Source: Bdellovibrionales bacterium (lineage in GTDB: Bacteria; Bdellovibrionota; Bacteriovoracia; Bacteriovoracales; Bacteriovoracaceae). From it: a stretch of 17,390 bases of DNA. Location of the stretch: contig SXUH01000283.1 in the NCBI GenBank assembly GCA_005791855.1, positions 1 to 17,390 on the forward strand. Direction: 5' to 3'. The notes beneath the pieces were generated by a model, which saw only the letters and a program-made list of their open reading frames with translations, was not told where the DNA came from and did not search any database. The stretch's first letter is position 1, and each line of letters starts with the position of its first letter. This document shows positions 4,598-7,139 of this stretch, piece by piece. A program made the position numbers and the translations under genes.

Positions 4598-5548
4598 TCA
4601 AAGGTCCAAGCTGAGAGATTGGTGAATTTTTAGCCGCCGCTTGTTATAAGCTTTTGTCATGGAAATATCTTTGTGTCCGACAAAATCTGCCACTCTCTCG
4701 AGCGGATGCCCCTTGTCTAAGAGCATGCCGATGACGGTGGCCCTCGCCGAGTGGATGGTGATGTTTCCAGTGACGCCGATCTTCTTTGCGTAGCGCTTGA
4801 TGATGTAGTTGAGGGACTTGGGATCCAGGGCCTTGTTGAGATTCCCGTCGAGCGCGTTGCGTGTCGGACGGAAGATGTAGTCCTCCGGCCGCATGGAGTA
4901 GTTTTGGGCCTCGCACCAACGGAGGTAGTCGCCGAGGGCCGCCTCGACCTTCGGGTTCATGGGCGTCACCATCTCCTGCGCGCCCTTGGCCTTGTAGCGG
5001 ACGACGGTGAAGCCGTTCTCTTCCCCGAGGTTCTTGAACTTCAGTTCGGAGACCTCCCGGTGACGCATGCCCGTGGTGAAGAAGAGGTGGAGGATCGCCT
5101 TGTGGAGCTTCCCCGGGCCGGTCTGCGTGTCAATGGCGTTCAGGAGGTCGACCACCTGTTCGTCGGTGAGGTCCTGGGTCTTCACCTCCTTGGCGATGCG
5201 GAAGCGCTTGACCCGGGCGATGGGATTCTTCTCCAGGAGGTTCATGTCCATGAGGTAGTCGTAGAACGACCAGAGGGTCGCGAGCGTGCGGTTCACGCTC
5301 CGCTGGGAGTAGTTCTCCTTCAGGAGGTGGTCCTTGAAGGCCACGGCGTGTGAGTGCTCGACCTTGAGCTCGTTGAACATCCGGAACCGCTCCTTCAGGA
5401 AGAGGAGGAACTTCCGCAGGTCCCGGGTGTAGGCGTCTCTGGTGTGCCGGGAGGAGAAGTTGTGGATGAAGCCGTAGTAGATCTTGTTCCGGTCGAACTC
5501 GGCGAACTTTCCGATCTCGAAGCCTGAGAAGTTCTGCACCGAGCTCAT
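4598..5548 (-). CDS. Tyrosine recombinase (Xer/integrase type)
   Basis: A 316-residue site-specific recombinase. The N-terminal core-binding, SAM-like domain spans about 25-110 (SSRHTRDAYTRDLRKFLLFL near 32-51), and the catalytic domain about 125-310. All catalytic residues can be placed: R162 in TTGMRHREV, K188 in the beta hairpin YKAKGAQ, H266 and R269 in HSAR, H292 in GHKDIS, and Y301 in KAYNKR. Size and single core-binding domain are Xer-like, but I do not assign xerC or xerD. The frame is open upstream, but ATG 5548 is preferred: it follows GGGGAG and its ATGA overlaps the stop of the upstream gene. It is cotranscribed with a probable DNA-binding protein and lies between two inverted repeats, suggesting a dedicated recombination unit. 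Confidence 0.9.
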   Translation of the reverse strand: MSSVQNFSGFEIGKFAEFDRNKIYYGFIHNFSSRHTRDAYTRDLRKFLLFLKERFRMFNELKVEHSHAVAFKDHLLKENYSQRSVNRTLATLWSFYDYLMDMNLLEKNPIARVKRFRIAKEVKTQDLTDEQVVDLLNAIDTQTGPGKLHKAILHLFFTTGMRHREVSELKFKNLGEENGFTVVRYKAKGAQEMVTPMNPKVEAALGDYLRWCEAQNYSMRPEDYIFRPTRNALDGNLNKALDPKSLNYIIKRYAKKIGVTGNITIHSARATVIGMLLDKGHPLERVADFVGHKDISMTKAYNKRRLKIHQSLSLDL

Positions 5549-6129
5549 GCGCGCTCCCCTTTCTTCTGGGCCCAGTCCAGGCAGAAGGAGAGCACGGCCC
5601 ACTCGTCCTTCGGCAGGATCCGGAAGAGGTTCTTCGGATTGTACGCCTGGATCCGGACGATGATCAGCACGTGGTTCACGGCCTTGGTGATGTCCGCGCG
5701 CTCCCGGGGCCCGAGCTCGAGCTTCTTCCCCTTCTTCACGTCCCCGGAGTAGGACTTGAGGACCTTCTCCACGTTCTGCAGGCTTTCCTTCATGATCTGC
5801 AGCTGGTCCTTCTGCCGGCGCTTCATCTCGATGAACTGGTCGATGATGAAGCGGATCTTCCGGCCACGGCCCAGGTCGGATTTCCCGGGGACCCGAAGGC
5901 CGTCTAAAAACTCCAGGTATTTCTTGGCGAGGCAGAGGGTGAAATTTTTGGCCTTGAGATCATCTTCGACCCGAGGTCTACCGGGAGATTTTTTGAGCTT
6001 TTTGAAGGCCGGCTGCGGCGTTAAAAATTTTTCGATCAAAACTTCCGGCGCTACTTTCTGCGTAGCGTCCGAGAGCCCGGATTTTAAAATTTTTTTCAGG
6101 ACGCTTATGCTTTGCTCAGTTTCATTCAT
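5545..6129 (-). CDS. Probable DNA-binding partner of the recombinase (AT-hook plus RHH-like)
   Basis: A 194-residue basic protein of no named family that I recognise. SPGRPR at 48-53 is the core of an AT-hook, a minor-groove binding motif. It is followed by a strand-like KNFTLCLA (61-68) and two helices (KKYLEFLDGL; RKIRFIIDQFIEMKRR), the order expected of a ribbon-helix-helix fold. A likely coiled coil follows (about 100-128), then a hydrophobic C-terminal region with LLIIVRI-like and EWAVLSFCLDW stretches. Start: ATG 6129 with GGAG six bases upstream, rather than in-frame TTG 6141. The stop overlaps the recombinase start by ATGA. Role inferred from context: repressor, accessory factor or directionality factor. 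The first quarter is more AT-rich than the rest. Confidence 0.78.
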   Translation of the reverse strand: MNETEQSISVLKKILKSGLSDATQKVAPEVLIEKFLTPQPAFKKLKKSPGRPRVEDDLKAKNFTLCLAKKYLEFLDGLRVPGKSDLGRGRKIRFIIDQFIEMKRRQKDQLQIMKESLQNVEKVLKSYSGDVKKGKKLELGPRERADITKAVNHVLIIVRIQAYNPKNLFRILPKDEWAVLSFCLDWAQKKGERA

Positions 6130-6161
6130 TTTTGACTCCAAAAAACGATAGTGAGGGCATC

Positions 6162-6187
6162 TACCGCATAATTCCCCTTATGAGGTA
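6162..6187. other. dif-like inverted repeat, candidate Xer-type recombination site
   Basis: Arms TACCGCATAA (6162-6171) and TTATGAGGTA (6178-6187) are inverted copies matching at nine of ten positions around the six-base centre TTCCCC. E. coli dif has an 11-base XerC arm ending CGCATAA, a six-base centre and a XerD arm beginning TTATG; the inner part of both arms and the centre length are the same here. It lies 33 bases upstream of the recombinase operon. Alternatively it is an operator for the RHH-like protein. Confidence 0.6.
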
Positions 6188-6252
6188 TAAAAATAGTGTA
6201 TTTGAATTGATCTAATTTAACTAATAAAATTGAACTAGTTTTAATGGGAAAA

Positions 6253-6266
6253 ATGCGCATACGCAT
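6253..6266. repeat. Short inverted repeat upstream of the acyltransferase gene
   Basis: ATGCG (6253-6257) and CGCAT (6262-6266) flank CATA. The first eight bases, ATGCGCAT, are themselves a palindrome and recur at 7190-7197, beyond the other end of the acyltransferase gene. It may be a regulator site; no regulator can be named. Confidence 0.3.
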
Positions 6267-6283
6267 AGGTGACTAAAATGGTA

Positions 6284-6313
6284 TTTCATTATTCCGCCAG
6301 ATTCATTTAAACT
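6284..6313 (+). promoter_or_regulatory. Possible promoter giving a leaderless acyltransferase mRNA
   Basis: TTTCAT (6284-6289) and TAAACT (6308-6313) are 18 bases apart. The match to consensus is moderate, but the predicted start of transcription falls on or next to the ATG at 6321, and no Shine-Dalgarno is present, so the mRNA may be leaderless. Confidence 0.3.
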
Positions 6314-6320
6314 AGCTCTC

Positions 6321-7139
6321 ATGATCAAAACAAACGTCGAACTCTGTCCGCCGAAACGGCTGAGCCCCTGGAGGAAAATCTCCCTCGGAACCTGGAAACC
6401 GATCGGAGATTCCCAGGTGTACTGCGAACTCAAGGTCAACGCGGAACCGGCCCTCCGGCGGATCGAGGAGCTCAACCGGACTCTGCCGACGAAGATCACG
6501 CTCACGCACTTCGTGGGAAAGGTCATGGGGATCGTCCTCCGGGAGGTTCCGGACCTCAACGCCATCGTGCGGCTCGGGAACATCTACCCGCGGAAGAACG
6601 TGGACATCTTCTTCCAGATCGTCCACGACCAGACCGAGCTCTCGGGCCACGTGATCCGGAACATCGACCAGAAGTCCTTCCTGCAGATCTCAACGGAGCT
6701 CACGAAGACCGCGTCCTCCGTGCGCTCCGGAGAGGATCTGAACTTCAAGAAGATCAAGAAGACCTGGAGCTTCATCCCCGGATGGTTGGCCTGGTTGGTT
6801 CTGGACCTGATCGGGTTCTTAAGCTATGGCCTGAACCTCAACATCAAGGGCCTGGAGGTCCCGCGGGACGCCTTCGGCAGCATGATGATCACCAACATCG
6901 GAAGCCTCGGGTTCAGCTCGGCGTTCGTTCCGCTGGTGCCGTACACGTACACGCCGGCGGTGCTCGCCATGGGGAAAGCGGAGTTCCAACCGTACTGTGA
7001 CGATGCCGGGAATGTGAAAGCACAGAAGCAGATCAGTCTTTGTTGCACCTTCGATCACCGGTTACTCGACGGCGCACGAGGTTCGCAGATGGTGAAAATT
7101 CTCAAGCACTACTTCGAAAATCCGCAATTGTTGGACTAG
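6321..7139 (+). CDS. Stand-alone 2-oxoacid dehydrogenase E2-type acyltransferase domain
   Basis: A 272-residue protein consisting of the catalytic domain of 2-oxoacid dehydrogenase acyltransferases (the chloramphenicol-acetyltransferase-like fold) with no lipoyl or subunit-binding domain. The active-site motif FDHRLLDG is intact (H246, D250). SMMITNIGSLGF (187-198) and the N-terminal LSPWRKISLGTW (14-25) are also typical. A hydrophobic stretch at about 153-170 (GWLAWLVLDLIGFLSYG) is unusual for an E2 core and may associate with membrane. No E1 or E3 gene is nearby, so a role in pyruvate or 2-oxoglutarate dehydrogenase is unlikely; an acyl transfer to another thiol or hydroxyl acceptor is inferred. 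No Shine-Dalgarno is seen. Confidence 0.88.
   Translation: MIKTNVELCPPKRLSPWRKISLGTWKPIGDSQVYCELKVNAEPALRRIEELNRTLPTKITLTHFVGKVMGIVLREVPDLNAIVRLGNIYPRKNVDIFFQIVHDQTELSGHVIRNIDQKSFLQISTELTKTASSVRSGEDLNFKKIKKTWSFIPGWLAWLVLDLIGFLSYGLNLNIKGLEVPRDAFGSMMITNIGSLGFSSAFVPLVPYTYTPAVLAMGKAEFQPYCDDAGNVKAQKQISLCCTFDHRLLDGARGSQMVKILKHYFENPQLLD

Follow-up and report, generated by a model that had tools for sequence, protein, structure and literature searches.

We predict that the window, the whole 17,390-nucleotide stretch of Bdellovibrionales DNA analyzed here, probably carries a second dif/Xer-like resolution cassette, patchily distributed, horizontally exchanged and with its own accessory protein, beside the primary dif of its genus. 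The cassette would comprise two repeats with a core site, a partner gene and a recombinase gene, laid out in the window as follows.

4598..5548 (ATG at 5548), minus strand: tyrosine recombinase, 316 aa, Phage_integrase and SAM-like N-terminal domain, from domain matches.
5545..6129 (ATG at 6129), minus strand: partner protein, 194 aa, predicted helical, from the open reading frame and its homologues.
6162..6187, minus strand: dif-like core site, TACCTCATAA GGGGAA TTATGCGGTA on the coding (minus) strand.
6195..6200, minus strand: candidate -10 hexamer TACACT (weak) in the interval between repeats and site, by eye from the module alignment.
6202..6219, minus strand: operator-like AT-rich repeat 2, TAAATTAGATCAATTCAA, proximal to the site; a similar repeat stands in the same place in related modules.
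6225..6242, minus strand: operator-like AT-rich repeat 1, AAAACTAGTTCAATTTTA, whose start is 23 bp from that of repeat 2.

Positions 6162-6187 read TACCGCATAA TTCCCC TTATGAGGTA, two 10-bp arms that pair at nine of ten positions around a six-base centre, just as an earlier note, made from the window alone, had described. This is the dif/Xer layout of two inverted ~11-bp arms and a 6-bp centre, and the site is intergenic, with the partner/recombinase operon on one side and the gene at 6321 on the other. The likeness to classical dif that the note had seen is confined to the inner CGCATAA and TTATG; neither the centre nor the outer arms share it. Arms this good at a spacer of exactly 6 occurred four times in the window versus 0.75 expected under a Markov model (40 resamplings, maximum 3), and equally good arms occurred once in the 179-bp stretch 6142-6320 versus 0.0125 expected. 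Taken alone, the window gives little evidence; the case is carried by conservation from genome to genome. A consensus promoter scan returned nothing on the minus strand and, on the opposite strand, a single hit, equal to the shuffle mean. Upstream of the repeats, at 6251-6270, we also saw a tandem pair of CGCATA half-site-like words, by eye absent from the aligned relatives.

Downstream of the site, a two-gene operon on the minus strand encodes the partner protein and then the tyrosine recombinase. We took R162, K188, H266, R269, H292 and Y301 to be the catalytic positions of the recombinase. These presumed catalytic R, K, H, R, H and Y were unchanged in all 15 aligned relatives, consistent with the note's reading of a complete recombinase in the adjoining operon and with the dedicated tyrosine recombinase, catalytic residues included, that marks a dif/Xer system. 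An assignment as an XerC, XerD or XerS equivalog was rejected, as the NCBIfam scores fell far under the cut-offs (XerC, 131.5 against 335.15 bits; XerD, 129.9 against 329.6; XerS, 56.7 against 267). Going by its sequence pattern, the partner may be a ribbon-helix-helix protein. It matched no family in Pfam, NCBIfam, PHROG or PADLOC at the default limit; its AF2 monomer (mean pLDDT 78.5) has helices and no strand, and no PDB fold matched the model at E≤0.001. A weak ParD/RHH match appeared in two of 69 members of the partner family (best E 0.1).

The partner was present in 15 of the 58 genomes searched, and recombinase relatives of at least 55% identity in 14, all from the window's genus (14/26). 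The recombinase looks dispensable, since 12 of the 26 genus genomes, many of them incomplete, are without it; in G011 there is just a 57-aa piece, and G024 has an additional broken copy. Five named loci among the recombinase relatives are labelled Bacteriovoracaceae or Bacteriovorax stolpii. In three genus genomes (at loci L003, L110 and L112), an Xer-like protein stands beside a ribD-like gene and by eye misses several catalytic residues.

The core CATAANGGGNATTATG was found exactly, and once each, in 12 of the 14 genomes that have a recombinase relative, namely G000 (the window's own genome), G002, G003, G004, G006, G009, G010, G012, G013, G014, G016 and G019, several of which are incomplete. 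A single copy per genome (n=12), intergenic in the window, is what a dif/Xer site would show. Among the remaining 46 genomes, exact cores occurred in three (G018, G032 and G039), and those of G018 and G032 are missing the upstream repeats. We counted exact matches only; one-mismatch matches are chance-like, with some match in 39 of 58 genomes and a reversed control widely matched too. Across its forms, the site keeps a centre of six bases, and its arms pair at 9/10 positions in the window, 10/10 in G014 and 7/10 in the commonest form. The two AT-rich repeats lie upstream, ~23 bp apart, the nearer one ~31 bp from the profile start, and conservation reaches from the repeats to ~15 bp beyond the site and falls off on either side (column count over 11 of 13 modules, without G012 and G024). 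A profile of this module scored 48-54 bits at the site versus at most 9.4 bits elsewhere in eight contigs, the profile having been built from sites including those it then scored. Repeat matches at ≤4 mismatches were scattered throughout contigs.

The sister-clade recombinases (in G024, G007 and as a second copy in G002) come with the core TGATAA-NGGGCA-TTATCA, exact on 3/3 operon contigs; relative to the main type both arms are changed, and two similar repeats are kept. A fourth exact copy of this core, with repeats present, occurs in G018 (82% complete), where we looked for a sister-clade recombinase and found none. An exception is G004, with a main-type site and a recombinase of 60% identity that in one tree branches with the sister clade. 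Because both arms change together between recombinase groups, we predict, from sequence comparison, that the repeat is very likely the core site of its own recombinase; the note's suggestion of a dif-like site with a dedicated recombinase gains from the exact core in 12 of 14 genomes and from the changed arms of the three sister-clade recombinases. In G009, site and operon are parted: the operon leader keeps the repeats and is missing the site, and repeats plus site stand 105 kb from the operon, with no operon there, at the position of the operon and site in G016. The AT-rich repeats of this genome are found both with and without the site. Since G009 has repeats and site without the operon, the repeat is more than a promoter.

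A second, different palindrome, TGCACGATAA-N6-TTATCGTGCA, was found in 23 of the 26 genus genomes at ≤2 mismatches and in 25 at ≤3 (three mismatches in G008 and G015; not in G014). Beyond the genus it occurs in G029, G034, and G055 with 3 mismatches, and its reversed control matched in one of 58 genomes. In the window's own genome, it lies at C422:4745-4770. A form near CTGCACGATAA-N6-TTATCGTGCAG has, in all seven contigs compared, a MoxR-type gene adjoining and an asd-like gene 1.5-16 kb away, both gene names being given by eye; a MoxR-type gene was in the available flank at 17 of 28 loci, and the 2.2-kb piece G000:C422 showed neither gene. The best skew changepoint was 4-14 kb away from this palindrome in six of seven contigs; in G019 only the cumulative-skew maximum agrees, at 5 kb (first 200 kb of the contig). 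The type A recombinase, which we pair with the palindrome, is present in 23 of the 26 genus genomes and in G029 and G034. We infer that the palindrome is the predicted primary dif of the genus. Among the open-licence matches listed, no account of a dif site in Bacteriovorax was found by title or start of abstract.

Known dif forms were rejected as candidates. A consensus scan of eight contigs for canonical XerCD dif gave a best match of 20/28, and a composite string 18/25; the Bdellovibrio dif reached 20/28. The XerD-arm core pattern occurred in 20 of 26 genus genomes, about the reversed-control frequency, and its G016 matches were confined to the neighbourhood of the origin. Further copies of the predicted dif, differing in their centres, occur at G024:C9:29377 (on the same contig as the G024 cassette), G002:C54:11353 and G024:C4:27365 and are possible integrated elements, and the viral contigs L315-L318 (IMG/VR) carry the palindrome with different centres, as expected of dif-integrating phages.

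Our best reading of these sequences is that the second system coexists with the predicted dif in the same terminus region. A position in the terminus region, for which the note had suggested a GC-skew check, held wherever distances could be taken: in all eight measurable genomes of the 12 that bear the core, the predicted dif is 0.4-111 kb away from the window-type site (G009, 0.4 kb; G016, 2.6; G002, 3.0; G006, 12.9; G010, 38.6; G004, 41.0; G019, 102; G003, 111). The best skew changepoint was ≤30 kb from the window-type site in five of eight contigs and 107 kb from it in G003; in G019 the cumulative-skew maximum was 97 kb away, and the 98-kb contig of G012 had no sign change. The changepoint of G016 was 7.9 kb from the window-type site versus 10.5 kb from the other palindrome. 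The window-type loci occupy three gene neighbourhoods (the G002 one read in part); that of G000 is common to G010 and G004, and the insertion point differs. By a hand estimate, the chance of lying ≤111 kb away is ~6% per neighbourhood and ~3 in 10,000 for three, assuming three independent neighbourhoods and with the 111-kb limit picked post hoc. Linkage of the window-type site to the terminus region is suggestive.

A tree of 24 proteins places the recombinase of six other genera as sister group to the window clade (support 0.89), and a seventh relative, in G042, groups with type A. If the 3.44-Mb contig of G027 is its chromosome, the relative there stands 38 kb away from the position opposite dnaA. 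We also scanned the DNA upstream of seven other relatives (G027, G028, G030, G031, G032, G035 and G042) for palindromes. In G031 (L041), a perfect 11-6-11 dyad stands 131 bp before the recombinase gene and may be the dif of its genus, and G032 has an 11-7-11 dyad; the dyads of G027, G028, G030 and G035 were weaker or farther off, and G042 had none. Within the window's genus, the recombinase follows the type A tree only partly (rank correlation rho 0.38, 78 pairs, 13 genomes); exchange of the cassette between genomes is therefore likely and mobility plausible. We reasoned that dimer resolution is the best explanation because of the single copy, the terminus linkage and this kinship, and chromosome-dimer resolution would be the function of the cassette.

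As the main alternative, a small mobile cassette of recombinase and partner, sometimes with toxin-antitoxin-like cargo, may spread from chromosome to chromosome and use the site for attachment or mobility, an explanation that we regard as rather doubtful. Patchiness across the genus, the tree conflict, the differing neighbourhoods and the two cassette types in G002 are consistent with it, as is cargo between site and partner gene: an AbiEi/AbiEii-type pair in G002 (C109) and, in G007, a gene for a DUF6036 nucleotidyltransferase together with another gene. However, each genome has a single core and no second flanking copy, the main-type operon neighbours look ordinary (seven proteins, three genomes read), and all eight measurable copies are ≤111 kb from the predicted dif. 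Moreover, no plasmid or phage record matched the recombinase at 60% identity or more, the matches listed (20 of 517 and 20 of 94) being at 25-32%, and the viral contigs had no partner relative or exact site match. One core per genome, the lack of a flanking second copy and ordinary-looking neighbours where read also tell against an element integrated at dif, which the note had offered; an IMEX would have two flanking dif-type sites, and a single exact core per genome was found. AbiEi/AbiEii-type or DUF6036 nucleotidyltransferase pairs also stand directly 5' of the partner gene at L026:1-1291, L023:124-1297 and L025:26-1190, and at L025 no recombinase was found adjoining the partner gene.

It is unlikely that the repeat is a regulatory leader, acting on the partner-recombinase operon as an operator or an RNA hairpin. 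The site does lie just 5' of the operon in most genomes, and RNA folds run through the arms in some versions (window, -8.3 kcal/mol; G014, -21.6; G018, -18.6), but the commonest form has three of ten arm pairs broken and no fold through the arms, the window is without any Rfam match, and G009 has a module without the operon and an operon without the site. The note's idea of an operator for the partner passes rather to the two separate upstream AT-rich repeats, which are the likelier operators.

We consider it very improbable that the window site is the primary dif of the lineage, served by a one-recombinase Xer system: its dif-type layout, its own recombinase and its nearness to the skew switch in two genomes, G009 and G016 (in the latter slightly closer to the changepoint than the other palindrome), would suit that role, but 23 of 26 genus genomes, among them G000, carry the other palindrome at ≤2 mismatches, in 7/7 contigs it has the MoxR-type gene adjoining and the asd-like gene 1.5-16 kb off, and a recombinase in 14 of 26 genus genomes is not universal. 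Given the better-conserved palindrome near the GC-skew switch and the 14/26 count, the note's reading of this site as the chromosome-dimer resolution locus of the lineage is not supported. Of the two observations by which the note would have judged its proposal, a better palindrome does lie near the skew switch, whereas the repeat is conserved beside homologous recombinases.

In the second resolution cassette that we favor, the recombinase would bind each arm, and a dimer or replicated sister chromosomes would bring two sites together for recombination at the site. The partner, which we expect to bind the two fixed-distance repeats, might serve there as an accessory or topological factor, by analogy with ArgR and PepA at cer. 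XerCD acts at cer/psi with accessory sequences and the proteins ArgR and PepA. Like that system, the window cassette has a core with accessory repeats at constant spacing and, should the partner bind them, an accessory DNA-binding protein; unlike it, the cassette is chromosomal, its partner is without a family match, and its recombinase is co-encoded. XerS/difSL, XerH/difH and XerL of Legionellales each have one tyrosine recombinase and a ~28-bp inverted site with a short centre, which is near the terminus and often beside the recombinase gene, according to the available text of two papers (PMC2731167, PMC9765430). The window system shares with them the single recombinase and the inverted site with a short centre near the terminus, but it is a second, non-universal system beside another terminus palindrome, and it includes a partner gene as well as two conserved repeats. 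A further paper (PMC3025954) describes a species that has xerC and xerD and, close to the skew switch, a xerS as well; a site for this second system was not found there. As in that species, there are two Xer-type systems per genome, one near the terminus; in contrast to it, a site is proposed here for the second system and followed over 12 genomes. In the open-licence literature, we found no match combining tyrosine recombinase, dif-like, ribbon-helix-helix and chromosome.

Tentatively, and as a possibility rather than an expectation, the family may be midway through a change of dimer-resolution system, in which an older one-recombinase system persists beside a newer, nearly universal dif. In such a change, the accessory protein and repeats could free the older system from FtsK, and selection would hold a transferable second site at single copy and near the terminus. 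Bdellovibrio filaments contain several chromosomes before division (PMC11318664). For the replacement of one chromosome-dimer resolution system by another, a single genus here offers genomes with and without the second system, one of them with site and operon parted, and a predicted primary dif as near as 0.4 kb. If this is true, replacement, redundancy and the reason for the terminus position would be testable in relatives of predatory bacteria.
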